Assembly (NCBI GenBank): GCA_028684915.1
Contig: JAQUEZ010000025.1
Location: 1 to 50,986, forward strand
Length of the DNA stretch: 50,986 nt
Origin: Desulfobulbus sp.
Lineage (GTDB): Bacteria; Desulfobacterota; Desulfobulbia; Desulfobulbales; Desulfobulbaceae
Direction of reading: 5' to 3'
Made by a program: the position numbers and the translations under genes. Below the pieces are notes generated by a model that had not been told where the DNA came from, ran no database searches, and saw only the letters and a program-made list of their open reading frames with translations. Below are positions 1 through 13,126 of this stretch, one piece after another. The stretch's first letter is position 1. The number at the start of each line of letters is the position of its first letter.

Positions 1-124
1 AACCCGCACGTCCGGTTCGACGAGGGGGCGCTGATGCCACCAGGAAATCTTCTGATATGGAATAGCCGCGTGCGGCAAAACATAATCGTTGGCTCTTGGT
101 GCTCTCATCAGCGCTCTACTCTAC
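1..124 (+). mobile_element. 3' end of a group II intron (domains V-VI)
   Basis: The window opens inside what looks like the 3' strand of a domain V hairpin (CCGCACGTCCGGTTC at 4-18, the usual bacterial group II signature). A domain VI-like stem follows: GCGCTGATG at 28-36 pairs perfectly with CATCAGCGC at 106-114, and CACC at 38-41 pairs with GGTG at 98-101. Just after the stem comes CTCTACTCTAC, typical of the 3' terminus of bacterial group II introns. The reverse transcriptase/maturase and the rest of the ribozyme would lie outside the window. The splice junction is placed near 124 by analogy only. The distal part of domain VI (42-97) is longer than usual and holds its own small hairpin at 65-76. 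Confidence 0.6.
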
Positions 125-298
125 ACAAAGGAAGAACTCGAGGCGTTTGAGGAGAAATGGCATCAGCTTAAGGGTAAGGCATCGCGAATAGCAGATGATG
201 CCATCGATACCACCGAGGAGTGTATCGACAAGGCAAAGATAATCGGGGAAGAGTTGAAGGAGACCTGCAAGCGCATTGCCGAAAGGCTCTCCGAATAA
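125..298 (+). CDS. C-terminal part of an unrecognised helical protein
   Basis: An open frame runs from the presumed intron junction to a TAA at 296-298 (about 57 residues). The frame can be extended back to a TTG at 89, but that part lies inside the intron domain VI stem, so it is probably not the true N-terminus. The peptide is charged, rich in Glu and Lys, and predicted to be almost wholly helical (for example TKEELEAFEEKWHQL), with no motif I recognise. It is either the 3' exon of a gene interrupted by the intron or a chance frame. Deciding needs the sequence left of the window. Confidence 0.35.
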   Translation, partial: TKEELEAFEEKWHQLKGKASRIADDAIDTTEECIDKAKIIGEELKETCKRIAERLSE

Positions 299-626
299 CA
301 GGGAGGCATTGAACGCTGGTCCCGCTGAAACGGCGTCGGCGGCTACCTGGAGAAAAATCGGAAAGCCGTCCGGCTCACTTGCGCACGAGCAATGCCGTCG
401 CAGGTCCACCGCCGATCCACCAAGCCCACGAAGTCAACCTGAGCTGAGCTTTGGACCGCCTCAGGCCGATGCATTGAGTGGGATACATCATTCCTCGTCA
501 ATGAAATTGAGATGGAAGGGGCGGCAGATGAAGACTGCTGGAGAAGATGGGGTAGGAGGCTTGCGCCTGTGATCCCGGTGATGGCAAGGCCTCTCGCGTG
601 CGGACCGGAGGGCGACCGGAGAAAAC
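299..626. other. Gene-free stretch
   Basis: No convincing gene. The overlapping open frames here lack ribosome binding sites and recognisable motifs. The stretch lies between the presumed intron exon and the terminator of the displaced tRNA end. Confidence 0.5.
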
Positions 627-660
627 AAAAAAGGGTTTAGAGGAAAACCTCTAAACCCTT
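627..660 (-). terminator. Original tRNA-Arg terminator, now displaced
   Basis: A perfect 13-bp stem (631-643 with 648-660, loop AAAA) reads on the minus strand as a hairpin followed by a T-run. It sits just beyond the duplicated tRNA 3' end, so before the element integrated it would have terminated the tRNA transcript. The first bases of the stem (AAGGGTTTA) match the terminator carried by the element at 9221-9262. Confidence 0.75.
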
Positions 661-668
661 GAATGTTT

Positions 669-716
669 TGGTGCGCCTGGAGAGATTCGAACTCCCGACC
701 TACGGATTCGTAGTCC
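669..716 (-). repeat. Left attachment site (48-bp tRNA-Arg 3' half)
   Basis: These 48 bases are identical to 9268-9315, the 3' half of the intact tRNA-Arg from the CCA to the 5' strand of the anticodon stem. Beyond base 716 the sequence no longer matches the tRNA. This is the remnant pushed away by integration and marks the distal end of the element. Confidence 0.9.
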
Positions 717-797
717 TGACTAATCATCAACCATCTTGACTGATTATTCAGTATATCCAGCACTTTAGAGTCTATCCTGATTTCTCATTTGGTGCGA

Positions 798-815
798 TGA
801 AACTATAATGAAACT
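798..815 (+). promoter_or_regulatory. Left arm-type integrase site (paired TGAAACT)
   Basis: TGAAACT occurs twice, 11 bases apart (798-804 and 809-815, spacer ATAA). The same pair with the same spacing occurs at 9138-9155 at the other end (spacer TCAA). Short direct repeats near both ends of an element with a two-domain-binding tyrosine integrase are typical of arm sites. The assignment is by position and repetition only. Confidence 0.55.
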
Positions 816-1095
816 TTGGTCCAAATCCAAGTCATTATCATCAGCACCCGATATGCACAATTTACCCCACCCTGCACGGTGTTGGCAAGTGGGTAAATCT
901 GGAAATATTCAGGATATTGAATTGTCCAAATAGGGTGCTGTCCCTACTCCCCTTGAAAAACGCTCTATTTGCCCCTGTGTTGAAATAATTTAGCTGCACA
1001 TCTATTCGTATGGATTGCCCAATAAAACTACTTGAGCGCTCATTTTAAAGCGTTTAACAGTTTGTAATCACATTGGTAATATCATTGCAATTTAC

Positions 1096-1141
1096 AGTGA
1101 AGTGTTTTTAACACGAATGAATATATTCGTAACACTTCACT
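1096..1141. repeat. Long imperfect palindrome
   Basis: AGTGAAGTGTT (1096-1106) pairs perfectly with AACACTTCACT (1131-1141); inside lies a second small inverted repeat, CGAAT / ATTCG. No T-run follows, so it is not a simple terminator. It could be an operator, an origin hairpin or a packaging site. Confidence 0.6.
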
Positions 1142-1544
1142 TTAATTCCACGCTATTACTTGGATTGAGGAAATCGCTATAGGAAGGGTAAATGTGGTGA
1201 GAAAAAGGTCGATAGGGGGCTGAGATAAACGGGTGGGGTGCTTCCGCTTTGCCTCACTTTTGTCTAATATTTCAAGTTGAAAAATTTTGGGAAATGTTAT
1301 CAATGATAATAATTGAAAAATATAGATGAATTTAAATTGGAATAGTTACAATATGGAAGCAATTATCGTTTTCTGCGCAAAAATAGGGGAACCCTTTTTT
1401 TGACTGACTTTATAAATTTTATTGATGGTGGAAAATGATTTGGAATACTTTGGCTGATGCTTTAGCGAGTATTTTTTAAGAGGTTAAGATAGAGTCATTT
1501 CAAATGACGGTATATCGATATATAGCCAATCAGACCAATTTTCT

Positions 1545-2516
1545 TTATAGCGTAGTTTTAGTTTTGTATTTTTGTTCAAATTCATTATTTTCTCTGTTTA
1601 ATCCGTAAGATGTATATATAGAGACATAGCGTTTACTATTGGTAGCTTTTGCAAAAAAGCATAATATGTCACCAATTTTCCAACTTGCTTCAAAAGAAGA
1701 AAATTTAGCACCAAATCCATTTACCAATTTAACATCTCTATAGGAATTTGGTTTCCCCCACTTTTTTATTAAAGCAGATAGAGCATCTTGCTCATATTTG
1801 CGACCATCCAAATAAAATCTAAACCCTTCAACATTCCCATCATATATACGTACATACAAGCTATCTACAAAAATTGGACAACGATAAAGTTCAACTTTTA
1901 TGTAACCATTAACTAAGTCAGTTCTAGTTACTGGGTCGGGACGATAACAAGTAGTGGTTGGAATTTCTCCATAAGGGCATTGTGGAATCTGATTAATAAA
2001 TGACTCACCTATATCGATTCCAAAAACTGTCTTATCGTAGTTCAAATCAACGCTATGATCATTTTGATTATTTGCATTTATTTCATACTCTTTTTCAGTT
2101 TTGTTATTTTGAGCAATACCAGATGAGCTATTAAAAATACTAACAATTGATGGAATTGAAAACAAAATAACTATTATCAATAAACCAACTGAAGAAAAAA
2201 TTAAAATATTTTTTGATTTTTTATTTTTACTCTGTGATTCACCAACATCATTACTATGCTTGCTTTCATATATCTCTTTTTTATTATATTTTCCAAATAC
2301 AATGCCGCATTCCGTGCATTCTTTATTATTAGAACTAATTCCTCCACACTTTGGGCAAGTAATAGTTTTAGAATCGTCAATCTCTATATTCGATGATTTT
2401 CTTTTTATAGTTATGACTTCACCACATACCTTACAAGATGTACGCACATCATGATTTGGTATCTTTTCGTCTGGAATATTATATATTTTTTCACACTTTG
2501 GGCATTTTATTTTCAT
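1545..2516 (-). CDS. Zinc-ribbon membrane protein of unknown function
   Basis: A 323-residue protein. The N-terminus has the MJ0042-type zinc ribbon (CPKC at 5-8, then IPDEKIP, then C28/C31), followed by a second ribbon (C54/C57, C67/C70). A single hydrophobic segment at about 103-126 should span the inner membrane, leaving the ribbons in the cytoplasm and a C-terminal domain of ~190 residues outside. That domain begins with a FGIDIGES motif and has several Cys (for example QCPYGE, YRCPIF). I recognise the ribbon but not the C-terminal domain. The gene stands alone, reading outward to the left end of the element, with long non-coding sequence on both sides, and is the clearest cargo-gene candidate. 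A role in host interaction or defence is possible but not shown. Confidence 0.75.
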   Translation of the reverse strand: MKIKCPKCEKIYNIPDEKIPNHDVRTSCKVCGEVITIKRKSSNIEIDDSKTITCPKCGGISSNNKECTECGIVFGKYNKKEIYESKHSNDVGESQSKNKKSKNILIFSSVGLLIIVILFSIPSIVSIFNSSSGIAQNNKTEKEYEINANNQNDHSVDLNYDKTVFGIDIGESFINQIPQCPYGEIPTTTCYRPDPVTRTDLVNGYIKVELYRCPIFVDSLYVRIYDGNVEGFRFYLDGRKYEQDALSALIKKWGKPNSYRDVKLVNGFGAKFSSFEASWKIGDILCFFAKATNSKRYVSIYTSYGLNRENNEFEQKYKTKTTL

Positions 2517-2826
2517 AGCAATCTGTATTGATTACGAAAAATTAACAGTTATAAAAAATCTGTGAACAGAAAAATTTTTTTAAATAACCGATAAAAGGCA
2601 AAAAAATACAACTGGAATATATACAACTATATGGAATTTCTAACTTTTATTTACCAATATTAACACCTATCATACCGTCAAGGGCATGTCAATGCACAAA
2701 GAGAGTGGATGGGGCAATTTGTCACATCTGGCTATTCATCCAATAGTGACCAAAATTCAATTGATCACAAGGTCATACAGGGCTAGCGTACCTCAATAGA
2801 CAGTCAACCCTGATTCGCAGTAAAAA
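2517..2826. other. AT-rich intergenic region
   Basis: No gene seen. It separates the minus-strand zinc-ribbon gene from plus-strand antirepressor remnants and presumably holds the zinc-ribbon gene promoter; no convincing -10/-35 pair could be singled out in such AT-rich sequence. Confidence 0.4.
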
Positions 2827-2901
2827 GATGAAGTGGCAATGCTTGGATATGCAAATACACAAAATACAGTAACAGTCACTACAACTTGGTGCAATATGTA
2901 G
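2827..2901 (+). pseudogene. Remnant of a BRO-N antirepressor domain
   Basis: The frame reads DEVAMLGYANTQNTV and then decays to a TAG at 2899-2901. This matches the helix of the BRO-N domain (usual form: KD-A--LGY-NT--AIR) and parallels KDAAIMLGYKDTTQAIR of the next gene. It stops exactly where the first palindrome begins, which suggests a duplicated domain broken by palindrome insertion. Only about 25 residues are visible. Confidence 0.5.
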
Positions 2902-2928
2902 TGGGGTAACGAAACGTTACCCCCTACA
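2897..2928. repeat. TGTAG...CTACA palindrome, copy 1
   Basis: Stem GGGGTAACG (2903-2911) with CGTTACCCC (2915-2923), loop AAA, extended by TGTAG (2897-2901) with CTACA (2924-2928) and one bulged T. The outer bases resemble copy 2 at 3152-3183, though the inner stem differs. This outline (TGTAGGGG...CCCCTACA) is a known kind of dispersed small palindrome in bacterial genomes. Confidence 0.7.
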
Positions 2929-3047
2929 ATGTAGTACAAAAACTCAAAAATACCGAAACGCTATTTCTGGATATCCCATCAAGAAAAAATCCACTACCTG
3001 GAACAGTTATTCCGTTTGACTTTGGAGGAAAAACTCTTCGCTCACTC

Positions 3048-3437
3048 ATGGCAAATAACGAAGTTTACTTTGTAGCAAAAGACGCAGCAATTATGCTCGG
3101 ATATAAAGACACTACACAAGCTATACGCAAAAATTGTAAGAAGGCACAACCTGTAGGGGGGCGTCTAGTAGACGCCCCCCACAAAGTGGTACTTGATCCG
3201 CAAACAAATATCATTCCTGAATCAGACTTGTGGCGATTGATCATAAAATCAAATCTACCAGAAGCTCAGAAGATTGAAGAGTGGGTTATGGAAGAGGTAT
3301 TGCCTGGGATTCGTAAGAATGGAGGATACATTTCTCCGAATGCTAATGCAGATCAGATTAAAACTCTTTCATGCCCTTGCACGGTCTGTTTTTATCGTCA
3401 CACTGATCTATTGCATTTTTTATTACTTGATTTCTGA
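3048..3437 (+). CDS. Truncated BRO-N antirepressor-like protein with an in-frame palindrome
   Basis: A 129-residue product with the BRO-N fold: NNEVYFVAKDAAIMLGY at the N-terminus, then TTQAIRKNC, NIIPESDLWRLIIKS and AQKIEEWVMEEVLPGIRKNGG, all family signatures. BRO-N proteins are DNA-binding antirepressors of phages and related elements, usually with a second C-terminal domain; here the similarity ends after about 110 residues and an unrelated tail follows, so the gene is probably broken. The domain seems to start before this ATG: the frame stays open back to 2910 and reads TVIPFDFGGKTLRSL just upstream. A 30-bp palindrome (3152-3183) lies in frame and adds about 10 residues between QAIRKNC and the DPQTNIIPES segment. 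Confidence 0.6.
   Translation: MANNEVYFVAKDAAIMLGYKDTTQAIRKNCKKAQPVGGRLVDAPHKVVLDPQTNIIPESDLWRLIIKSNLPEAQKIEEWVMEEVLPGIRKNGGYISPNANADQIKTLSCPCTVCFYRHTDLLHFLLLDF
3152..3183. repeat. TGTAG-type palindrome, copy 2, inside a coding frame
   Basis: A perfect 11-bp stem (3156-3166 with 3170-3180, loop AGT) extended by TGT / ACA. It lies within the BRO-N coding frame, keeps it open, and falls where family members normally run on without an insert. Confidence 0.75.
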
Positions 3438-3491
3438 TGAACAATATCATATATTATATTTATCTTTACTGTTCATATATAGTTCTTGAAT

Positions 3492-3530
3492 ATCCCCTGT
3501 CAAACAATGCAACTCTGACAGGGGATTTTG
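3492..3530 (+). terminator. Terminator between convergent genes
   Basis: A perfect 11-bp stem (3492-3502 with 3516-3526) followed by TTTTGTTTT on the plus strand. It closes the antirepressor region and lies 8 bases beyond the stop of the minus-strand GIY-YIG-like gene, so it may act in both directions. Confidence 0.75.
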
Positions 3531-3533
3531 TTT

Positions 3534-4466
3534 TCAATTTATTTGGTCAAGTTCAACTAAACGAATCCAGTCATTCAAATATCTCATTTTTTCAAATTGG
3601 CGAAAATTTGAAATAATTGTATCGTTTTTATCTAAATCAATATATTTTTTAAAACTACCAAATTTTACCCATGTATACTTGTCTAATTCAAATTTATCCT
3701 TCTCTATTGAATAGGCAATGACATATGGATGAAAAATATTTTCAATTTCAATATTAGCATCTGAAAAATACAAATTTATAAATTCATTAAGTTTTTTATC
3801 GACTTCTAAATTATGTAATTCTGTTTTAATTTTCAATTTCTTTAAATGATCAAAATCAATATATTTGCAACATTCACTTAATCCGCTAAAATCTGTATAT
3901 TTTTGTTTTAAACATTGGTTGAAAACTGAATTGCTATGAATAGCATTTTCTAGCATTTTGCAGTTGAATAGACTAGATTTTACTATAAATATCGGTTCTA
4001 TTGAAATAGTTCCATTTCCTTTATTGTTAAAGTTCCTCTCAGTCCATCCAATACGCTCTTTGATAAGTCCAATATCTGACTTGTCTTTAGCATGTCTTGT
4101 AGCGGTAATTCCAATCTTGTAAAAAATATCTCCTTTATCTGTGATAATTTTACAACAGTATAGAGCACATGGTGTATTTCTTGCCTCATCTTCATAAATA
4201 ACTATATTTCTAATATTAAAGTATTTTTCATCAGACCTATCACCATCATGTTTTTTATTTGGAATCAAAAAGCATCTTTTTGATGTTTTATACTTTTTAG
4301 ATGATTCGATTTTAGTTTTAAAATCATTTTTACTTAATTTTATTAACTTTTTACCAATTACACTGTTTGCATATCTACCATTATTCAATGAATTATTTAT
4401 CAATAACTGCATATACAGATCATTTTCTGAATCAATAGACGTGTCGTAATTACCTGTATCACTCAT
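3534..4466 (-). CDS. GIY-YIG / T5orf172-like protein
   Basis: A 310-residue protein. The central part resembles the GIY-YIG-like group found in phages: ALYCCKIITDKGDIFYKIG (a strand pair ending in FYKIGIT), a later KERIGW, then MLENAIH and FSGLSEC, where the family has a conserved Glu and an F-G--ECF motif. If the match holds, the protein may be a nuclease or nuclease-derived DNA-binding factor. Residues 1-80 and the last 100 are not recognised. The coding sequence is extremely AT-rich. It overlaps the 3' end of the RepA-like gene by 8 bases and is probably translated from the same transcript. Confidence 0.55.
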   Translation of the reverse strand: MSDTGNYDTSIDSENDLYMQLLINNSLNNGRYANSVIGKKLIKLSKNDFKTKIESSKKYKTSKRCFLIPNKKHDGDRSDEKYFNIRNIVIYEDEARNTPCALYCCKIITDKGDIFYKIGITATRHAKDKSDIGLIKERIGWTERNFNNKGNGTISIEPIFIVKSSLFNCKMLENAIHSNSVFNQCLKQKYTDFSGLSECCKYIDFDHLKKLKIKTELHNLEVDKKLNEFINLYFSDANIEIENIFHPYVIAYSIEKDKFELDKYTWVKFGSFKKYIDLDKNDTIISNFRQFEKMRYLNDWIRLVELDQIN

Positions 4467-5982
4467 TAGGCTTCACCTTAAAAATTTCAAAATCATCAAT
4501 TCTAGTGAAGTAATAAATTTTCCTGCCAATTTTTTCCATGCATATGTACCCTTCCTTAACTGCCTTGCTCATGCTGTCCTTGGCACTCCTATCCTTGATA
4601 TCAAAATTCTCCATAATGAGCTTTGTAAATTCCTCTGACCCCAACACCTTGCCATCAAGGATGTCTCTGATTTTCTGAAATTTTTCGTTTTTCTTAGCTT
4701 CTGGTGTTTTCCCTTCATCGCCTAGCGCTTGCCCAACGGTTTTGAAAATCATGTTGTTGCAAACGTAGGTGAGATTGAAATTTCCATACAGGTCATTTGC
4801 CTTGGGACGCTCAATCCTGTTCAGGTGTACCGTGTCACCAATGTTTAAATCGCTGAAAACCTTATCTGCTTTGTCACCGCCAACAGAACGCAGCGTATAA
4901 TGACAACGAACGCTTTCAACTATTGCCGAACTACCACGATATTTATTTTCCTTGCCATGGTGGTGAATAATGATTGGTGTCATTCTATACTTGGCGCACA
5001 ATGAGAACAGCTTGCCTGTTACTGCACGCATGGACGTTGAGTCATTTTCTGAGCAACCAGCAAATATTGACAACGAATCCAGGACTAACAAGTCTGGGAT
5101 TTCCTCACCACTTATGTACAAATTTTTCAAATTTGTGGTGATGTATTCCACCAATGAACCATCACCATCAGCGCTCAGTGATTTATTGGTGACTTTGAAT
5201 GAATTACCAAGGAAAAATAGGGAGTTGATTCCGCTCCTTAAACTTGAATCCTTGCACATCAACCTCAGTCGTTCGGTTATCGTGTGTTCAGAGTCCTCTT
5301 GCTGCACGATTAATGAGGTGTACCTGGATTTCCCTTTCTGGAATCCCAACCATTTGTCAGTGTCTTGTGACCCCAAAGCGAGTGCCATATTCAACACCAA
5401 TGCACTCTTTCCCGTTCCACCACTGGCGGTGATGAGTGTTGGTGCATCCTTGTTTAAAAATCCCTCAAGGATGGACTCTGACTTCCTCTCGCTTTCCAAT
5501 GACTCCAGTGAAATTCTTTGCGGAATAACGCATTCTTGCGTTATCTTATTTTCAAATTTTCTGCTAAACTCTATTTTGCGTTTTTCCTTAACCTCTTGAT
5601 TTTCGTCAGCAAACACTCTATTTCGTGCGTAGGCATCAAAATCATCTAAGGTGAAGCAGGACTCGTATTTCTCATTAATCCCCCTCAGAAACGATTCTAC
5701 AGCTTCCTTGGATGAATCCTGTGGGTCAATGTCCAGCAAGACCGACTTCGCCAAATTCCTCAACATTCTGTTGATTTTGGAATCCTTGGAAAATTGCTCG
5801 TAAATTATTCCGTATGATTCCGTTGGAATATCGTGACCAAGTGAATTGAGTCTCTTGGTGACACTTTCCCTTTCTTTTAATAGAAACGATGTCCATATCT
5901 CTCTGATATCACTTTTTAAAAGGTTATTTTTTACTGCTGCGAGCTGGTTATTCTCCCTGGATTTGTCAAATTGAATTTCCAA
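4459..5982 (-). CDS. RepA-like AAA ATPase / replicative helicase
   Basis: A 507-residue protein of the RepA / AAA_25 hexameric-helicase type. Walker A is ASGGTGKSALV (about 187-196), Walker B is LLVLDSL (about 298-304), and the H-loop region reads IIIHHHGK (about 337-344) followed by YRGSSAI, the usual order in RSF1010 RepA and satellite primase-helicases. Residues 1-165 are an unrecognised leader region; the last ~90 residues look like a winged-helix tail. The start is a TTG: an in-frame stop lies two codons upstream and the next ATG is 70 codons in. It lies beside an iteron-like cluster at 6262-6562, which fits a role in replicating the excised element. Confidence 0.75.
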   Translation of the reverse strand: MEIQFDKSRENNQLAAVKNNLLKSDIREIWTSFLLKERESVTKRLNSLGHDIPTESYGIIYEQFSKDSKINRMLRNLAKSVLLDIDPQDSSKEAVESFLRGINEKYESCFTLDDFDAYARNRVFADENQEVKEKRKIEFSRKFENKITQECVIPQRISLESLESERKSESILEGFLNKDAPTLITASGGTGKSALVLNMALALGSQDTDKWLGFQKGKSRYTSLIVQQEDSEHTITERLRLMCKDSSLRSGINSLFFLGNSFKVTNKSLSADGDGSLVEYITTNLKNLYISGEEIPDLLVLDSLSIFAGCSENDSTSMRAVTGKLFSLCAKYRMTPIIIHHHGKENKYRGSSAIVESVRCHYTLRSVGGDKADKVFSDLNIGDTVHLNRIERPKANDLYGNFNLTYVCNNMIFKTVGQALGDEGKTPEAKKNEKFQKIRDILDGKVLGSEEFTKLIMENFDIKDRSAKDSMSKAVKEGYICMEKIGRKIYYFTRIDDFEIFKVKPNE

Positions 5983-6195
5983 GCGTTAAATGATGGTCCC
6001 TTGTTCCAAGGGTCTTTCGTCCCAAATATCTTCATTACTTATGTTCATATATAGTGCTCCTGTATTACCTGAAATACCTTTAGGTAAATATTATTTATAA
6101 ATTGTATCAAAATAACTGATATCGCCTTTTTTTTTCCCTTTCTCTTCCGCCTTTTTCAACCTTCTGCAAAAAACGCTATAGAGTACACCCCTTAC

Positions 6196-6235
6196 CATGT
6201 ATAACTCACCCCACCTTTAGGTGGGTGATTACATG
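6196..6235. repeat. Long palindrome upstream of the RepA-like gene
   Basis: Core stem CCCACCT / AGGTGGG with a TT loop, extended by TCA / TGA and by CATGTA (6196-6201) / TACATG (6230-6235). It lies in the presumed origin region between the iteron-like repeats and repA and could be a hairpin origin element or an operator. Confidence 0.6.
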
Positions 6236-6261
6236 TCAGTGGGTGTCTATATAGGGGTCTT

Positions 6262-6562
6262 TGCATCTATGCATGTATTATTTATTATGTATTATCAACC
6301 ACTTAACCAATAATCTAGCAATTCCATTAAATTCAAATTCTCCACAACGCTTGCATGTAATATTTTTACGTAAAAACAGTTATTTATGATTCTGGGTCAC
6401 AAATAGATGCACCATATTTGGTCAAAATCATGCCCAATGCTGCATGTATTGAAAAATCCATCCGTGCATCTATTAATTTTGTGTAAATACAGTGTTTTAT
6501 ATACTTCATCGTTCATTTCTTGCATGCGTTGTATCTATGCATGCATTGGCAATTGCATCTAT
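6262..6562. repeat. Iteron-like cluster, candidate replication origin
   Basis: TGCATCTAT occurs exactly at 6262-6270, 6465-6473 and 6554-6562, in inverse orientation at 6403-6411, and with one mismatch at 6530-6538. A related TGCATGTA(T/A) occurs at 6270-6278, 6352-6360 and 6441-6449. The whole lies in a gene-free AT-rich region (5983-6692) directly upstream of the RepA-like gene. Repeats of this sort upstream of a rep gene are the hallmark of iteron origins. The spacing is irregular, so they could instead be regulatory binding sites. Confidence 0.5.
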
Positions 6563-6591
6563 TAAACCCTGCCTTTTCGCCACATATACAG

Positions 6592-6620
6592 TTGAGGATC
6601 ATCCTTACTTATGGTATGAT
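6592..6620 (+). promoter_or_regulatory. Sigma70-like promoter for a short transcript
   Basis: TTGAGG (6592-6597), a 17-base spacer, then TATGAT (6615-6620). It points at the short segment ending in the strong terminator at 6664-6694, with no reading frame in between. Confidence 0.5.
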
Positions 6621-6626
6621 ATATGC

Positions 6627-6694
6627 ATAGCTTCATAGGGAAGCAGGTACTGTATACCATGTTCAAGGTGCTCATTTCTGAGCACCTTGTTTTT
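6627..6694 (+). ncRNA. Candidate small RNA of ~70 nt, antisense to the rep-proximal leader
   Basis: A promoter-like pair with ideal 17-base spacing is followed ~45 bases later by a perfect terminator, giving a predicted transcript of about 65-70 nucleotides that ends at the 3' edge of the minus-strand operon. It would be complementary to any transcript running from that operon toward repA. Plasmid copy number is often set by such short antisense RNAs, so a role in controlling repA is plausible but unproven. Confidence 0.4.
6664..6694 (+). terminator. Strong intrinsic terminator
   Basis: CAAGGTGCTCA (6664-6674) pairs perfectly with TGAGCACCTTG (6679-6689), loop TTTC, followed by TTTTT. The T-run is only on the plus strand. 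Confidence 0.8.
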
Positions 6695-6872
6695 ATGCGT
6701 CTTGGTTTGCATCCTTCTTAAAATAAAATCCGTTTTCCAGGACAATTTTTCCACCCGCTTTAATCATCTCATTTAGGATTTCGATTTCCTTGGTTTTCAG
6801 TGTGGATTTTCCTATCTTTCTGCCAGCGTTGAACTGCTCCAAAATGGTGTAGGTGAATCTCATATTTTCCAT
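6693..6872 (-). CDS. Small hypothetical protein, last gene of a three-gene operon
   Basis: A 59-residue product if started at the ATG at 6872, which has GGAGG eight bases upstream; an earlier ATG at 6890 (65 residues) overlaps the preceding stop by four bases and would be translationally coupled. The sequence is basic (KIGKSTLKTKEIEIL) with a helical core followed by a strand-like GGKIVLENGFYF end, suggesting a small winged-helix-like fold. I do not recognise a family. Confidence 0.55.
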   Translation of the reverse strand: MENMRFTYTILEQFNAGRKIGKSTLKTKEIEILNEMIKAGGKIVLENGFYFKKDANQDA

Positions 6873-6886
6873 GGCATTTGCCTCCA

Positions 6887-7426
6887 TCATTGGTAGGCAC
6901 CAACCGACCTAGAGAGGCGGTGTATGTCCATTGCAGAATATTTGCCAATTTTTCTTTTCTGTATTGCCCTTGGTGTGTAATCAACTTTTTGTAGCTCTGA
7001 AAATGCTTTTCTTAATGATTTCTTTTGGTTGTCGTTAAGATTTAAGATTTGCCCGTTTTCGATTCCTTGAAGGATGTCGATTACGTGATGCTCTGACAGA
7101 GGTATCGTTTCTTCCTTGGCGGTATCAGCATCGAGGTCAACCGGTTTAAAATAACTTGGCAAATTTTCTTTCAATTTCTCAATCAGTTTCTCGCTTCTGA
7201 CGATATCCCCATTTTGATCTCTGACAATCGCTCTATTCTCACCACGGTATTCAATAACGTCAAATGATACCCTGGATAATGCGTCCTCCAGCGCATAGTC
7301 ATTGGCAATGCCAGCAATTTGTAAATCCTTTTCAAAACTGCTTCTTGCCTCTCTTTTTAAAAGTTCTACCATAACCTCTTTCGCAATTTTATTGGTTTGC
7401 TCACCATTATTCTCCATATTTTCCAT
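6887..7426 (-). CDS. Hypothetical protein of the element operon
   Basis: A 179-residue, mainly helical, acidic protein with no motif I recognise. Its ATG overlaps the stop of the upstream HTH gene by one base (TAATG), a coupling arrangement, and its own stop overlaps the long form of the next gene. A middle segment (VIEYRGENRAIVRDQNG) looks like a short beta hairpin; the C-terminus is basic. Probably a DNA-handling or regulatory partner of the HTH protein, by position only. Confidence 0.6.
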   Translation of the reverse strand: MENMENNGEQTNKIAKEVMVELLKREARSSFEKDLQIAGIANDYALEDALSRVSFDVIEYRGENRAIVRDQNGDIVRSEKLIEKLKENLPSYFKPVDLDADTAKEETIPLSEHHVIDILQGIENGQILNLNDNQKKSLRKAFSELQKVDYTPRAIQKRKIGKYSAMDIHRLSRSVGAYQ

Positions 7427-7776
7427 TAATTACCTCCATTTCTTAATTCTTCCACCATGCTCTGTAAATCCTGCATGCTTTTACTTGGTTGGTGTTTTTC
7501 GCCATATAATTCTTGGTATAAAACGTATACGTTTCCAAGATGGTTGACATATTGCTCAATCTGACTTTTTCTGTTTGTTAATTCAATGTGTTCTTGCTGG
7601 AGTAGTTGCAGAACATCCCATAATGGCACACGTTCATATTTCTCTCCTGCAATTTTAACTCTTCTCATTCGACTATCTTTTACTATACGGTCAAGATTTG
7701 ATTGCTTAACATTTAATACCTGACTCACGTATGATAGTTTTAGAGTATTTCCAAGTGTCCACTCCTCATCAATCAT
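7426..7776 (-). CDS. Putative HTH DNA-binding protein
   Basis: A 116-residue product. The start at 7776 is chosen because GAGGAG lies seven bases upstream; an earlier ATG at 7797 would add seven residues and has no such site. The N-terminal half (KLSYVSQVLNVKQSNLDRIV, then MRRVKIAGEKYERVPLWDV) looks like an excisionase or MerR-type helix-turn-helix followed by a wing. The C-terminal half is a helix of Gln/Glu-rich sequence. As the first gene of the operon near the integrase it may be a regulator or recombination directionality factor, but this is not certain. Confidence 0.5.
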   Translation of the reverse strand: MIDEEWTLGNTLKLSYVSQVLNVKQSNLDRIVKDSRMRRVKIAGEKYERVPLWDVLQLLQQEHIELTNRKSQIEQYVNHLGNVYVLYQELYGEKHQPSKSMQDLQSMVEELRNGGN

Positions 7777-8073
7777 AAATTTACTCCTCATAAGCATAAT
7801 TATCTAAAATAACAATTTGTTTTATGTAATATAAATTATCACATTATACATGAGTAACATATTGCAGTTTTAAAAATCAAGCTATTTTAGCCATACCTAA
7901 TATTTTTAAAACAAGATAATTTGGGATGGGATTACCGGGAAATACTGACATGAATATGTCAGTCTCAATGCTGTGAATAATGAGGGGATTTAAAGCAGGA
8001 AGGAAATTTTCGGGGGAAAACTCGTGTGGGTGCATGAACAACACCCACACATACAGAAGGGTAGGGGGCAATT
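7777..8073. other. Gene-free stretch with two hairpins
   Basis: Two inverted repeats lie here: ACTGACAT / ATGTCAGT (7944-7963) and GTGTGGGTG / CACCCACAC (8024-8050). The second, read on the minus strand, follows the integrase stop and is succeeded by GAGTTTTCC, so it may be the integrase terminator. An open frame on the minus strand at 7877-8071 runs through both hairpins and lacks support as a gene. Confidence 0.5.
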
Positions 8074-9117
8074 TTAAAATATTTCGTCAATCACACAGGT
8101 TGCCTGTTTAACTGCCTTGTCTGTCAGATGGGCATATCGCATGGTAAGAGCTACGTCTTGATGCCCAAGAAGAGTTTTGAGCGTGTAGATGTCCACTTTG
8201 CCACTGCTGGCGAGATGGGAAGCATACGTATGACGTAAATCATGGAATCGGTATGTTAACCCAAGTCGTTTTTTCAGTCTGCCCCACGAAAGACTGAATC
8301 CAACATTATAATGGTTGCCATTCGAGGCACAGAAAACATAATTGGATATCTCTTCCCTTTTTGCTGCCTGAATGACCTCAAACGCTTTTTCATTCAATGG
8401 AAAGGATAATGTCCTGCCATTCTTGGTCTGTCTGCAGGTTATAATTCTTTCCTGCAGGTCAACATCCTTCCATTCGAGATTCAGAATCTCAGATTTTCTT
8501 CTGCCGGTGTATGCTGCAAACTTAATCACATTGGATGCTCTGGTGTTGCCCCCGTTATCCAAGTACTCAAAGAGGTCGTTCAACTGCTCTGTGGTAAGGT
8601 AGTTGGTCACTCTGTTGTCATATTTGGGCGCTTGCATACCTTGGCAAGGGTTAACCTTGGAATACAGACCGTTCTGAATATGCCAGTTATAGACTCGTTT
8701 AATGAGCTTGTAAACGTGGTCAACTGTGGCAGGGGCATTACCATTCTCTTTCATGGTGGCAAGAATCTTGGTCACTCCTGCTTGGGTTGAATGGTTGTTA
8801 CCATTCACATGATTGGTCCATCTGCTGTAATCATCCTTCCAAGACTTCTTATGGACCTTGGCATGTTCGAGGTAGAGGTTAAAATCGATTTTTCCTGTTT
8901 GCTTCTTGTCGAATAATTTCCCCTCGATTGATTCCGTTTTAAATTTGGATTCAATATTCTTTGCCAATTTGAGGTTGGGAACGGTCTTGGTTCTCCACTT
9001 ACCTGTGTCGGTATCCTTTACCCTCACTACATACTTAGTGAAACTCTTCCCGCAAATCTCACATTGTTTGGCAGTGCTCTTGTGGTCCTTTGTACAGCAT
9101 CTTGCATAGATAGACAT
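8074..9117 (-). CDS. int: Tyrosine recombinase (integrase)
   Basis: A 347-residue site-specific recombinase. Catalytic residues are visible in the expected order: Arg207 in YTGRRKSEIL, Lys232 in the beta hairpin (RQTKNGRT), HDLR with His292 and Arg295, His319 in LLGHQDV, and the nucleophile Tyr328 in TMRYAHL. The SAM-like core-binding domain spans about 75-165. The N-terminus has CEIC and an arm-binding-type region, with two more Cys (C7/C8), so a small zinc-binding arm domain is possible. It starts ~150 bases from the tRNA-Arg it presumably targets and reads inward. The enzyme would integrate and excise the element at the anticodon-loop region of the tRNA. Confidence 0.95.
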   Translation of the reverse strand: MSIYARCCTKDHKSTAKQCEICGKSFTKYVVRVKDTDTGKWRTKTVPNLKLAKNIESKFKTESIEGKLFDKKQTGKIDFNLYLEHAKVHKKSWKDDYSRWTNHVNGNNHSTQAGVTKILATMKENGNAPATVDHVYKLIKRVYNWHIQNGLYSKVNPCQGMQAPKYDNRVTNYLTTEQLNDLFEYLDNGGNTRASNVIKFAAYTGRRKSEILNLEWKDVDLQERIITCRQTKNGRTLSFPLNEKAFEVIQAAKREEISNYVFCASNGNHYNVGFSLSWGRLKKRLGLTYRFHDLRHTYASHLASSGKVDIYTLKTLLGHQDVALTMRYAHLTDKAVKQATCVIDEIF

Positions 9118-9137
9118 GATTCATTCTCCAAATTCAG

Positions 9138-9155
9138 TGAAACTTCAATGAAACT
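9138..9155 (+). promoter_or_regulatory. Right arm-type integrase site (paired TGAAACT)
   Basis: TGAAACT at 9138-9144 and 9149-9155, spacer TCAA, matching in orientation and spacing the pair at 798-815. It lies directly upstream of the integrase ATG, so integrase binding here could also repress its own gene. Confidence 0.55.
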
Positions 9156-9220
9156 TTTTGGAGAAATCAAAAGGAATATGAGGTTATTTCCTCATATGGT
9201 GACTCGTGCAGAAGGCATAA

Positions 9221-9262
9221 AAAAAGGGTTTATAAGCTTAAAATCACTTATAAACCCTTTTT
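9221..9262 (-). terminator. Terminator brought in by the element for tRNA-Arg
   Basis: A perfect 16-bp stem (9221-9236 with 9247-9262) reading on the minus strand as a hairpin ending in a T-run, six bases after the tRNA CCA. It differs in loop and upper stem from the displaced terminator at 627-660 but shares AAGGGTTTA in the same position. Confidence 0.85.
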
Positions 9263-9267
9263 AAAAA

Positions 9268-9315
9268 TGGTGCGCCTGGAGAGATTCGAACTCCCGACCT
9301 ACGGATTCGTAGTCC
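9268..9315 (-). repeat. Right attachment site (tRNA-Arg 3' half)
   Basis: Identical over 48 bases to 669-716. It lies within the intact tRNA and ends in the 5' strand of the anticodon stem, so crossover probably takes place at or near the anticodon loop, a common integrase target. Confidence 0.9.
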
Positions 9316-9344
9316 GACGCTCTATCCAGCTGAGCTACAGGCGC
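9268..9344 (-). tRNA. tRNA-Arg(ACG)
   Basis: A 77-base gene including an encoded CCA (9268-9270). The acceptor stem GCGCCTG pairs with CAGGCGC, the D arm reads AGCTCAGCTGGATAGAGC, the anticodon loop is CTACGAA (anticodon ACG, bases 9308-9310), and the T arm has GTTCGAATC. The 3' half is supplied by the integrated element and restores a functional gene. ACG needs adenosine deamination by TadA to read CGU/CGC/CGA. Confidence 0.95.
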
Positions 9345-9438
9345 AATGACGGTCACTCATATACTCTGGAAAAAAAAAATAAGCAAGTCCTTTCTTCGCG
9401 TTGATTCCTTTTTGAGCAATTTTTCTGGTTTTTATGGA

Positions 9439-11730
9439 TCAGTTGTTGGGGTCCGCTTCGAGGAAATCGATCTGGCTTTCCGCGGGCTTCATTTCGTTTC
9501 GAGGAATGATATCGACCTTGGCCTGGTGTTTGGCCTCGAGATCGCTCAGCTCCGCCCGTTTTTTATTGAGCAGGTATTGGGCTACATCCAGCGGCAGACG
9601 GCACTCGACCCGGGCGACTTTTTTGCGGGTGATTCCGGTCTGGATCCGGCGCAGATAATAGAGCGCCAGAGTTTCCACGGAACGAACTACCCCGCGTCCC
9701 TGGCAGTATTCACAGGTGCGGTAGCTGCCTTTTTCAATGGGGGCGCCCATTTTCTGTCGGGAGATCTGCATCAGGCCAAAACGAGAGATCTTGCTGATGT
9801 CGACTTTGGCCTTGTCCCGTTTCATGCTCACCTTGACCTGGCGTTCTACATCGCGGATATGCTTTTTGTTGCGCATATCAATGAAGTCGACCACGATCAG
9901 GCCACCGAGGTCGCGTAGCCGCAACTGGCGAGCCAGTTCTGCCGCGGCCTCCATATTGGCCAGAAAGATGGTTTCGTCGAAATCGGAGTTCTTGGAGGTC
10001 CGGCCGGAGTTGACGTCGATAGCCACCAGTGCTTCGGTGGGATTGATGACGATAGAACCACCGGAAGGCAGGGGCACCTGGGGCTTGAAAATCGATTCGA
10101 TCTGTTCTTCAACGTTATACTGGTTGAAGATCGGTTTGCTGCCGCGATGGAGGCGTACCTTGACCTGCCGCTGCTTAGAAGGCAGCTGTTCGATAAAGGC
10201 ATTGACATTGTCCATGGATTCCTGGGTATCGACCAGAATTTCCTGGATTTCGGGGATGAAGTGGTCGCGCAGGAAGCGGACGACCGTATCCTGCTCCTCA
10301 TAGACCAGGGCTGGGGCATCCTTGGTCTGGCCGCGCCGTTTGATGTCCTCCCAGAGAGTAAGCAGAGACCGGAGGTCTTTTTCCAGGGCGTTATGGGTGA
10401 TGTCAACCGAGGCGGTGCGAATGATGAAGCCAATGCCCTCGGGGATCTCAAACTCGCTCATGATCTCGCGTAGTGAGGCGCGCCGTTCCTCGCCAACGAT
10501 CTTACGCGAAATGCCGGAGCTGTCGCTTCCGGGCATCAAGACCAGGAACCGGCCCGGCAGTGAGAGGTAGGTAGTCATGTTGGCCCCTTTGTTGCCCGTG
10601 ACTTCCTTGACCACCTGAACCAGGACTTCCTGGCCTCGTTGCATCACCTCTTCAATCTTGAGCTTCTTCCACTGCTGCTGGGCAATGATTGTCCGCACCC
10701 GGTCGTTCACATCCTGCCGATAGTATTCGGGATGGATTTCGTTGAAGGGCAGAAAACCGTTGCGTCCGGTGCCGATATCAACGAAGGCCGCCTGGAGATT
10801 CGCCTCGATGGAGACGATCCGGCCTTTGTAGATATTATTTTTAGTGGGCTCGCGGTCGACGGTGGTCACATGGAAGGACTCAAGGCGTCCGTCTTCGACC
10901 ATGGCAATACGGCACTCCTCAGGCTCCTCGGCATTGATGAGCAGCTTGTAGATAACCGGTTTCCCTGAATCCGTTCCCAGTTCGTCCGGGACTACGTCGT
11001 TTTCCTCGTCATCATCCGTGTCCGATTCCAGCGTAGTGGTAATCGGCTGCTCCTCTTCCTCGCCCGTTAGTTCCGTCGGCGTGGCCTCAGCCGGTTTACT
11101 CCGTTTTTTGCCGCCGCGACGGGAGCGCCGTTTTTTTACCGGCGGTGGTTCCGGGGACTCTTCAGTTACGGTTTCTTCCGCTTGCTGTTCCTCGCCGGTG
11201 GTGACTTCTCCGGTTTCGACGCTGTCCTTGGCCGAAGGCTCCTCAGGCTGCAGATCAGCGTGGTGTGGTTGGGGTTCCTGCGGGACAGCGATTGCCTCTG
11301 TCGAGGCGGGAAGAGTGGCTTCTTCAGCCTGGGCCTCAACGGGTGCGGCTGTCTCCTCCTGCTCGGGCGGCTGTGCTTCGATGGCGGGCACGGGTGTAGG
11401 CTCCGTCACAGCTTCGATAACCACAGCTTCGATTTCCACCGGTTCGTTTGGCCCCGGTGCGGCCACTTCCTGTTCCACGAGGGGTTCAGGGCTCGTTGCC
11501 ACCGAATGGATCGGTACCTCAGGATCGGTTCTCTCGGTCGGCGGCTCAGTGACTGCTGCGGCTACAACAGGTGTCGGCGCAGCGGTGATATCTTCTCCGA
11601 CAGGTTGGTGACTGGCCTCCTGGAGTTGGGCTTCGGCCTCAGGGCTGAGACTTTTCCACCATGCACCTTTTTTAGCCTTGCGCACCGGGGGGGCTTTGTC
11701 TTCTTTTTCTTTGGAATTGTTCTTGGTCAT
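9439..11730 (-). CDS. rne: Ribonuclease E/G family protein with N-terminal extension
   Basis: A 763-residue endoribonuclease for mRNA turnover and rRNA/tRNA maturation. Residues 1-255 are a low-complexity acidic, Pro/Ala/Thr/Glu-rich extension with a basic patch around 199-212 (KKRRSRRGGKKR). The catalytic part follows: an S1 RNA-binding domain about 295-385, the 5' sensor/RNase H-like region, metal ligands Asp572 (VAIDVNSGR) and Asp615 (VVDFIDM), and a Zn-link at CEYC (673-676). E. coli RNase E carries its disordered scaffold at the C-terminus; here the C-terminus ends ~70 residues after the Zn-link and the disordered part is at the front. It lies just downstream of a radical SAM gene (92-base gap) on the same strand. 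Confidence 0.92.
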   Translation of the reverse strand: MTKNNSKEKEDKAPPVRKAKKGAWWKSLSPEAEAQLQEASHQPVGEDITAAPTPVVAAAVTEPPTERTDPEVPIHSVATSPEPLVEQEVAAPGPNEPVEIEAVVIEAVTEPTPVPAIEAQPPEQEETAAPVEAQAEEATLPASTEAIAVPQEPQPHHADLQPEEPSAKDSVETGEVTTGEEQQAEETVTEESPEPPPVKKRRSRRGGKKRSKPAEATPTELTGEEEEQPITTTLESDTDDDEENDVVPDELGTDSGKPVIYKLLINAEEPEECRIAMVEDGRLESFHVTTVDREPTKNNIYKGRIVSIEANLQAAFVDIGTGRNGFLPFNEIHPEYYRQDVNDRVRTIIAQQQWKKLKIEEVMQRGQEVLVQVVKEVTGNKGANMTTYLSLPGRFLVLMPGSDSSGISRKIVGEERRASLREIMSEFEIPEGIGFIIRTASVDITHNALEKDLRSLLTLWEDIKRRGQTKDAPALVYEEQDTVVRFLRDHFIPEIQEILVDTQESMDNVNAFIEQLPSKQRQVKVRLHRGSKPIFNQYNVEEQIESIFKPQVPLPSGGSIVINPTEALVAIDVNSGRTSKNSDFDETIFLANMEAAAELARQLRLRDLGGLIVVDFIDMRNKKHIRDVERQVKVSMKRDKAKVDISKISRFGLMQISRQKMGAPIEKGSYRTCEYCQGRGVVRSVETLALYYLRRIQTGITRKKVARVECRLPLDVAQYLLNKKRAELSDLEAKHQAKVDIIPRNEMKPAESQIDFLEADPNN

Positions 11731-11821
11731 TCGTGTCCTTTCGGTAATTTGTTACAAGCAACCGAACCGTCGCGCTGGTGGGGAGCGTGCTGTTGACAGA
11801 AAACGTTTGCACGTTTGGTCC

Positions 11822-12808
11822 TCACGAAGCGATTTGATAAAAACGTTTACCGCCGTGCTCTTGCATGTGCAGGGCTCCGGATCGGATCAACGGTTCAAGC
11901 AGGTGCTCAACTTTGTCCGAACCATTCAAATGAAAAGTCCGGTCTATATCAGCAGCGGTACAAGGGCGCCGCTGCAACATCTTGACAATTTCCCGGATAA
12001 CCGTCTCTGCAGCCGCCACAGGATGCAAAGCGGCCTCAGCGAACGGTTGTTCGGGAAGAATAGGTTTTGTCGCCGGTACAAAGGGTAGATCGACCGGCAG
12101 GGCCAAGGCGTGCTGGAAACGCTCGGCAATGGCGGAGAGTTCCCGGGCGGAGACAGCCAGGGCAAACGTTTCGGCTGGAGGGCGGACAACGGTGTTGAGC
12201 TGAATTCGGTCAATACGCATCGGGCAGATCGCAGCGATCAAGGCGTCAATATCTTCAGGTGCGTCGTTTATCCCTTGAGCCAGTAAAATTTCCAGCCAAA
12301 GTTTTCCTTCGTACTGATGGGAGAATGTCTGCAAACCGGTAATGATGTCAGCCAGTTTCATTCCGGACATGGGCCGATCAATCTTGCGGAAACTTTCTTC
12401 CCGGGCAGCGTCGAGCGAGGGGGTGACGATATCGGCCAGCAGAAGATCTGCCCGGACCTGCGGATCGCTCAAAGTTGTACCGTTGGTCAGCACCGCCAAC
12501 GGTTTGTTCGTCCTCGCTTTCAAATGGCGGAGGATTTTCCCTAGGTCGAGGTGCAGTGTCGGTTCCCCTTTGGCGGTCACCGTTACCACATCCACCTCGG
12601 CAAGCCGGGTAATATCGGCACAAAACAGATCAATTTCGGCCAGGATATCGTTGGTGTCCGAATACACCTCTCGTCTGCCGAACGGAATGTCGGTACGGCC
12701 GACTTCACAGTAAATGCAGTTGAGATTACAGATCTTATTCGGAAAGAGATCGATACCCAGAGACCGGCCGAGCCGCCTGGAATTCACCGGGCCGAAGATA
12801 CAATTCAT
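11822..12808 (-). CDS. Radical SAM protein (COG0731-like)
   Basis: A 328-residue protein. The Fe-S/SAM motif is CNLNCIYC (Cys27, Cys31, Cys34), followed by VTVTAKGEPTLH, the conserved second strand with GEPTLH, and later PSLDAA and DRP. This arrangement, with MNCIFGPVNSRRLGRSLGI at the start, belongs to the COG0731 group of radical SAM enzymes related to the wyosine-forming protein, whose bacterial substrates are mostly unknown. The C-terminal ~90 residues (TAADIDRTFHLNGSDKVEHL) look like an added winged-helix domain. It reads toward rne and may share its transcript. Confidence 0.82.
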   Translation of the reverse strand: MNCIFGPVNSRRLGRSLGIDLFPNKICNLNCIYCEVGRTDIPFGRREVYSDTNDILAEIDLFCADITRLAEVDVVTVTAKGEPTLHLDLGKILRHLKARTNKPLAVLTNGTTLSDPQVRADLLLADIVTPSLDAAREESFRKIDRPMSGMKLADIITGLQTFSHQYEGKLWLEILLAQGINDAPEDIDALIAAICPMRIDRIQLNTVVRPPAETFALAVSARELSAIAERFQHALALPVDLPFVPATKPILPEQPFAEAALHPVAAAETVIREIVKMLQRRPCTAADIDRTFHLNGSDKVEHLLEPLIRSGALHMQEHGGKRFYQIAS

Positions 12809-12957
12809 GCAGGGTTGTGACCGGTTTATGCCGCTATGAAAAGCGTATATAAGTGGGAAGATGCAAGCCTTGGAAAATCAAGTTATTAGGCAATATTATG
12901 ACTGCCGATTTGTAAACCAATTTCCACGCTCACGCAAGGCAAATCTACGCTTTTAAC

Positions 12958-12986
12958 TTGACACGATTTAGGGTGGCTCGTACATT
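12958..12986 (+). promoter_or_regulatory. Sigma70-type promoter for lptD
   Basis: TTGACA (12958-12963), exactly 17 bases, then TACATT (12981-12986). It lies 140 bases before the lptD start in the divergent gap with the radical SAM gene. Confidence 0.6.
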
Positions 12987-13126
12987 CGGGCCAGTTATCG
13001 GTGGTTATTGATTTTCCGTTTCTTTAATCGCTCCAGCCGGTTGGGTGCACGCCTGTACGTCGTTGATGTTCAATCGATGTGCCCGTTTTCCTGCCTTCCT
13101 TTCTCTAGCACAAGGAGCCCGTCGAG

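Follow-up and report, generated by a model that had tools for sequence, protein, structure and literature searches.

A compact integrative element at tRNA-Arg of Desulfobulbus with a RepA-like ATPase, and a collinear relative at tRNA-Phe

What kind of mobile DNA occupies a tRNA-Arg gene of Desulfobulbus sp. on contig JAQUEZ010000025.1, and how might it move from cell to cell? The window, i.e., the whole analysed stretch of 50,986 bp, contains between positions 669 and 9315 a block that the original prediction had described as an integrative element of unknown type. The block is a site-specific tRNA integrative element of 8,599 bp, recognised by its integrase, by repeats of a tRNA 3' end at its borders and by empty sites in relatives. 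The predicted 48-bp duplication is indeed an exact direct repeat (669-716 = 9268-9315); its right copy belongs to an intact tRNA-Arg(ACG) gene (9268..9344, minus strand), of which it makes up the 3' part, and serves as the integrase-side att repeat, and its left copy (669..716, minus strand) is the second att repeat, a displaced tRNA 3' end whose outer flank matches the empty site of Desulfobulbus sp. GS12. In 500-bp windows the G+C content between the repeats is 25-44%, compared with 49-62% to the right (up to position 14000) and 55% to the left, and a search of positions 1-12000 against Rfam at gathering scores reports this tRNA only; the rest of the window, apart from the neighbour described next, was covered by a list of open reading frames.

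The gene to the right of the tRNA (9439-11730), which we take from its sequence to be rne, coding for an enzyme of the RNase E/G type, leads to the corresponding site in other genomes. The scan of genome contigs for this neighbour kept the best 80 of 165 relatives as loci, the 13 best being 86-90% identical to rne of the window; the tRNA-Arg is matched in 55 of these best 80 loci, in 45 of them over its full length. In strain GS12 (locus L002), which lacks the block, the tRNA-Arg continues directly into sequence matching window positions 592-716 in reversed orientation (90.4% identity over 125 bp), a match that takes in the repeat as well as the flank with its terminator hairpin. The left flank alone matches this locus over 71 bp (90%), and shorter flank matches exist in L003 (49 bp) and L005 (40 bp). 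In G056, a genome of the same order with an rne 93.75% identical to that of the window, the same tRNA-Arg site is also empty, with a different hairpin next to the tRNA; only 49 bp (668-716) match the left end of the window there, the outer flank finds no match, and tblastn detects none of the element's proteins in the 15-kb stretch around this site (L113). The empty tRNA-Arg genes of these two relatives imply that the block is an insertion and that the left repeat is the displaced end of the tRNA. The original prediction had named as evidence against itself a left repeat arising as a chance tRNA fragment and a block continuous in relatives without the integrase; the two empty sites show otherwise and rule out the chance fragment. 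The original host terminator (631..660, minus strand) now lies outside the displaced repeat and resembles a hairpin directly after the tRNA-Arg of L002, and an element-borne terminator-like hairpin with 16-bp perfect arms, a 10-nt loop and a T-run (9221..9262, minus strand) directly follows the tRNA.

The original prediction had also proposed to look for the same integrase and RepA at tRNA-Arg in other Desulfobacterota. A collinear element was found in G056, at a different target: it sits in tRNA-Phe, which is followed by a 15-bp inverted repeat, and is delimited by an exact 58-bp repeat (L085 10636-10693 = 19370-19427), giving 8,734 bp from repeat to repeat. Read from the tRNA inward, the main open reading frames (ORFs) of the window element code for an integrase, proteins of 123, 179 and 65 amino acids (aa), an AAA_25 ATPase, a 310-aa protein, a Bro-N protein and a zinc-ribbon protein, and the first six of these occur in the same order in the relative. 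The tyrosine integrase (8074..9117, minus strand, 347 aa) is matched by Phage_integrase (E = 1.3e-31) and in PHROGs (2.4e-60), as predicted, and is 79% identical to that of the relative. The 123-aa protein (7426..7797, minus strand, 86% identical) has no Pfam family and is a weak candidate for a helix-turn-helix (HTH) regulator or excisionase, its 116-aa homologue in the relative matching HTH_17 at E = 0.17 only. It is followed by the backbone proteins of 179 aa (6887..7426, minus strand, 80%) and 65 aa (6693..6890, minus strand, 89%), the latter with a hairpin behind it at 6664-6689, by RepA (90%), and by the 310-aa protein (3534..4466, minus strand, 78%), which overlaps the end of repA.

Ratios of nonsynonymous to synonymous substitution (dN/dS) are 0.09 over the complete integrase, 0.08 over the final 77 codons of its gene, 0.155 for the 123-aa protein, 0.17 for the 179-aa protein, 0.20 for the 65-aa protein, 0.12 for the open part of RepA and 0.21 for the 310-aa protein, those of the first 270 integrase codons not being computable because synonymous sites are saturated. 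Such values indicate that the common backbone, consisting of the integrase, four further proteins and RepA, is under purifying selection. As one backbone is found at two tRNA targets, the family has moved.

The region at window positions 1368-3002 has no homology to the relative. In the window it encodes the zinc-ribbon protein (1545..2516, minus strand, 323 aa; Zn_ribbon_4, 5.9e-11), which finds no match in the relative, and in G056 a 515-aa ORF (L085 17237-18784) with no Pfam match at E<=1 and no PHROG at E<=0.1. A single slot, flanked by the Bro-N remnant and the far att arm, holds exchangeable cargo in both elements. Neither passenger was retained as a defence gene, their best PADLOC hits being at 0.022 for the zinc-ribbon protein and 0.021 for the 515-aa protein. 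Beside the far att arm lies a conserved, apparently non-coding block (957..1313, minus strand), 81% identical to the relative overall and up to 92% in a 100-column window, which matches no known RNA family at the Rfam gathering score and is matched in one of the order's 257 genomes.

How the target could have changed is suggested by the integrase gene. Judged from its differences to the relative, it is a mosaic: the share of sites that differ drops from 29.5% to 6.3% near window position 8281 (maximum chi-square 47.9, 0/2000 permutations), a scan restricted to third positions shows a drop from 0.53 to 0.22 at codon 262 (0/2000 permutations), and the proportion of synonymous differences (pS) is 0.79 in the first 270 codons versus 0.33 in the last 77. 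On the far side, detectable homology to the relative ends at position 957. In a circular form these divergent pieces would meet at attP, forming a segment of approximately 1.27 kb (240 + 48 + ~987 bp) whose integrase part is still alignable at ~70% and whose arms are not. The divergent integrase part and both att arms are contiguous only in the circle, and the simplest reading of these two elements is that an attP/integrase-5' cassette was exchanged once while the DNA was circular, together with a switch of target from one of the two tRNAs, tRNA-Arg and tRNA-Phe, to the other. A broken integrase at tRNA-Arg(TCG), also in G056, provides a further comparison. The first 70 residues of the window integrase share 48/70 with this broken integrase and 47/70 with the one at tRNA-Phe, residues 71-277 are nearer to the latter, and the last 70 residues share 69/70 with the tRNA-Phe integrase and 55/70 with the broken one.

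Candidate arm sites for the integrase are present at both ends of the window element as tandem TGAAACT repeats with 11-bp spacing, on the tRNA side at 9137..9155 and at the far end at 797..815 (both plus strand). Each end of either element has a tandem AGTTT(C/A) pair with this spacing close to its inner side; such pairs are absent from the remainder of both elements, although single half-site copies also occur elsewhere, and two or more such pairs were seen in 0/300 mononucleotide shuffles of each element. By eye, similar pairs are also visible just upstream of the integrases at two further loci of the order (L110 and L109).

The RepA-like ATPase of the original prediction was found as an AAA_25 protein (1.9e-21) with a longest open part of 507 aa (4459..5982, minus strand). 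In PHROGs it matches DNA polymerase/primase (2.6e-11) and DnaB-like helicase (9.9e-7) families, in all cases over the ATPase core only, and a PADLOC match to mad8 (6.8e-4 over 42 residues around the P-loop) is taken as a generic ATPase match. What we presume to be a comparable protein, the RepA helicase of the RSF1010 type, is likewise a stand-alone ATPase of RecA-fold type acting as replication protein beside repeats; however, the similarity is not significant (1g8y, E = 0.85), and the element's protein has 165 extra aa ahead of its ATPase domain as well as an extension at the C-terminus. Upstream of repA, positions 6049..6692 (minus strand) form a candidate replication origin and leader, comprising ATAGATGCA repeats and a strongly conserved non-coding block extending to ~6293. 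Windows at 5998-6293 are 95-96% identical to the relative, above most coding windows, and of this stretch the part below 6049 is repA leader and the rest non-coding. The repeat ATAGATGCA occurs four times in the 633-bp gap upstream of repA, a count as extreme being found in 6/1000 shuffles, and five times upstream of repA in the relative (1/1000 shuffles), in shuffles that only approximated the dinucleotide content. Regarding the iteron-like repeats of the original prediction, this enrichment bears them out in part, while the commonest 7-mer upstream of repA is unremarkable in both elements; support for an iteron character of the ATAGATGCA repeats is therefore moderate.

Homologs of this RepA are few. 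The protein search, which needed shared exact words and scored the best 7,994 word-sharing candidates, yields three relatives in the protein database (89%, 62% and 53% identical, the last one partial), all of which have their start some 25 codons or more ahead of the open frame taken for the window. An exact-word search of the same database retrieves three entries for the 179-aa protein and two for the 310-aa protein, in each case including the query itself. A RepA alignment matched in 4/257 genomes of the order, nearly full length in G056 and over 80-186 positions of the ATPase region in the other three, and in an evenly drawn sample of the phylum RepA matches occur in 5/395 genomes at E<=1e-10, all of them partial; a RepA scan of genome contigs gave no match. 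As to a packaging site possibly shared with a helper prophage, the two conserved blocks match nothing across the order's 257 genomes beyond the G056 element and three short stretches of 38-45 bp. The 62% RepA relative (P0002) is encoded on a contig of 8,655 bp, about as long as either element (8,599 and 8,734 bp), which could mean a circular free form or be chance.

For the gene inventory, 30 ORFs of at least 50 aa inside the element were scanned, namely the eight main ones, with Pfam matches listed up to E = 1, and 22 others, with Pfam and PHROGs only at E = 1e-3; the ORF at 488-763, which runs across the left repeat, was set aside. The eight main ORFs match only PHROGs of integration, antirepressor, replication-type or unknown families at E<=1e-3, and the 22 others no phage structural, packaging or lysis family. 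Altogether no capsid, tail, terminase, lysis, packaging or relaxase family was convincingly matched in the 30 ORFs, in line with the predicted lack of structural, lysis and transfer genes. The predicted antirepressor remains correspond to a Bro-N remnant of 129 aa (3048..3437, plus strand; Bro-N 4.4e-19, PHROGs antirepressor 9.7e-28), short in the window and broken in frame in the G056 relative. A 10-bp perfect stem with a 5-nt loop (GGGGGGCGTC/GACGCCCCCC) lies inside it at window positions 3156-3180. A sequence resemblance of the 179-aa protein to capsid scaffolds was dropped and is not claimed, its low-confidence model having a mean pLDDT of 63 and finding nothing in the PDB at E<=0.001. The middle part of the 310-aa protein is possibly GIY-YIG-like, no more than a lead that comes from a YKIG-like motif and a predicted strand-strand-helix-strand-helix order; its low-confidence model (mean pLDDT 35) finds nothing at E<=0.001 in a fold search.

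Beyond integration, which the empty sites document, we infer the following cycle. The integrase would bind the arm sites, i.e., the TGAAACT pairs at both ends, and recombine attP with the 3' part of tRNA-Arg(ACG), whereby copies brought by the element take the place of the tRNA 3' end and of its terminator, so that the tRNA can stay functional. Excision would probably be aided by the 123-aa protein, and the circle might then start replication in the iteron-bearing stretch ahead of repA, the AAA_25 ATPase serving as helicase. As no recognisable gene for leaving the cell is present, the element must borrow its transfer function, most likely by travelling in a phage capsid in the manner of satellites, which is the weakest step of the scheme. 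In the circular form, as the mosaicism suggests, the segment of attP and integrase 5' part may have been swapped as a unit along with the target tRNA. On balance we lean towards an integrative, replicative and helper-dependent island as the description of this 8,599-bp element. More tentatively, it might represent a so far undescribed family of Desulfobulbus phage satellites that lack a primase, with an AAA_25 RepA/iteron replicon, one cargo slot and an integrase-5'/attP cassette exchanged in the circle, so that the tRNA is switched in one step.

Several observations weigh against this view. In the repA leader of the window, an in-frame stop comes some 20 codons past the conserved start, so that the window copy may be impaired, and P0001 and P0002 are intact copies; the window copy may re-initiate, be defective or hold a sequencing error. 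RepA matches in three plasmid and 15 phage records span only 37-38% of the protein, that is, the ATPase core, and scans of viral contigs with RepA, the RepA alignment and the integrase retrieve no relative. Among the 30 scanned ORFs there is no match to a terminase, a capsid-remodelling gene, a primase domain or AlpA, and Bro-N may be irrelevant as it has decayed in both copies. The shuffle test of the arm sites used mononucleotide shuffles and is not independent, because the pattern was picked after the sequences had been seen, the third-position breakpoint of the integrase is not exactly at the breakpoint of all sites, and the comparison rests on two full elements.

Other explanations can accommodate part of these findings. 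An integrative and mobilizable element (IME) might lack a relaxase and carry an origin of transfer (oriT) only; after excising and replicating, it would pass through the mating pore of a conjugative element resident in the cell, using the relaxase of that element. Such iOriT elements are listed among helper-dependent elements in the review PMC11389934, an integrase with a replication module and no packaging gene fits them, and an oriT could lie in the conserved non-coding blocks at 957-1313 and ahead of repA; the lack of any relaxase or mobilization family in the 30 ORFs does not help this explanation, although it needs none, and Bro-N points to phage-type regulation, so that we consider it rather unlikely. 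Alternatively, and overlapping with the other family readings, the window copy may be reduced and stranded, no longer excising and kept by selection on its cargo or by nothing. The stop in the repA leader, the decay of Bro-N in both elements and a far end of ~0.8 kb (717-1544) with no recognisable gene, where one 53-aa ORF finds no match, would suit a stranded copy, and yet the integrase frame, the core frame of repA, the arm sites and the two att repeats are all intact, dN/dS stays at 0.08-0.21 across the common genes and the same backbone occurs at two targets, which makes this unlikely. It is distinctly improbable that the element is an integrative plasmid spreading by natural transformation or in vesicles with no dedicated helper: the layout of repeats and helicase-type ATPase is replicon-like and genes for interaction with a helper are not recognisable, but the plasmid matches of RepA cover the ATPase core only (three records, none above 80% of the query) and no partition or copy-control family is recognised in the eight main ORFs.

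The helper-dependent island that we favour fits in outline the general description of satellites, which in PMC13376191, a paper of 2026, are elements of 7-20 kb with att repeats, integrase, regulation and replication genes and no structural genes. The statement of the original prediction that no standard class fits fully holds, the element departing from the definitions of P4-like satellites, of PICMIs, i.e., the minimalist islands of Vibrionaceae, of Gram-negative phage-inducible chromosomal islands (PICIs) and of IMEs with a relaxase; on the gene content of the 30 ORFs, the standard prophage, P4, PICMI and relaxase IME were rejected. In organisation the element comes closest to Gram-negative PICIs, which according to PMC10111431 measure 10-20 kb and consist of integration, Bro, replication and late zones, Bro-N genes forming a regular zone. 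Alike are the small size, the frequent integration at tRNAs, the integrase at one end, the replication zone, Bro-N and variable regions. In contrast to this description, the element has an AAA_25 ATPase and no match to a primase domain (D5/Prim-Pol/DUF5906), no AlpA match is listed, the 123-aa protein being a weak candidate regulator, its decayed Bro-N lies beyond repA on the opposite strand rather than between the integration and replication zones, no late or capsid gene is recognised, and its length is 8.6 kb.

With PICMIs the element shares a very small gene set of integrase, candidate regulator, replication protein, unknown proteins and the lack of a capsid-remodelling gene. However, their model requires AlpA/HTH_17, a DUF3987/DUF5906 primase and a fis site, according to PMC10803314, whereas here no primase is matched, the target is tRNA-Arg rather than fis and the regulator is a candidate only: no PF05930 (AlpA) match is listed at E<=1 for the eight main ORFs, and HTH_17 in the relative's homologue is weak. 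P4-like satellites are defined in PMC8628076 by psu, delta, alpA, epsilon and alpha plus a custom profile for Sid. The element has an integrase and a replication protein in common with them and a helper dependence that is so far presumed, but its ORFs show no Pfam match to these five components (eight ORFs at E<=1, 22 at E<=1e-3), Sid not being included in this comparison. Searches of open-licence papers, made for Desulfobulbus and Desulfobacterota as well as for satellites and integrative elements in general, listed none on such elements in this group.

Elements that lack transfer genes are hard to classify, and the pair from the window and G056 offers a family that is small and delimited, whose ends are intact, whose replicon can be tested and whose cargo slot is mapped. 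The occurrence of the same backbone at different tRNAs is a natural comparison for locating the part of the integrase and the att arms that go with target choice, and the relative suggests how such elements change both target and passenger gene. If the satellite reading is true, such islands would extend to sulfate reducers.

Within the order, integrase matches at E<=1e-40 occur in 12/257 genomes at 16 places. The surroundings were viewed, besides the element itself, in four stretches of 5-20 kb each from three of these 12 genomes (L109-L112), where the integrases are 50-69% identical to that of the window; those of L109-L111 share its cysteine-rich N-terminus, and L109 is likewise at a tRNA-Arg, with anticodon TCG. 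Unlike the window, L110 and L112 encode primase-like proteins of 1003 and 977 aa near the integrase (phrog_16593, 9e-23 and 3.9e-23), and L111 has a 656-aa ORF in place of RepA; other backbone proteins were not found by tblastn in the L109-L113 stretches. The different proteins beside related integrases indicate that the integrase travels with different replication modules. At L109 in G056 (10788-13986), the integrase beside tRNA-Arg(TCG) is split by a transposase that by eye looks like that of an insertion sequence, and 46 bp of the tRNA 3' end recur at 6475-6520 in inverted rather than direct orientation. At L110 (10787-12189), no tRNA duplicate was found in the stretch examined, and the tRNA-Arg(TCG) turns its 5' side, not its 3' side, towards the related integrase. 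Distant integrase-like frames (26% and 22% identical) also occur just downstream of the same tRNA-Arg as in the window in L031 (11802-12440) and L075 (11795-12688). These are two of the 38 rne loci in which the tRNA is present with 1.2 kb or more of sequence beyond, and because of these frames the tRNA-Arg site may be a recurrent target.

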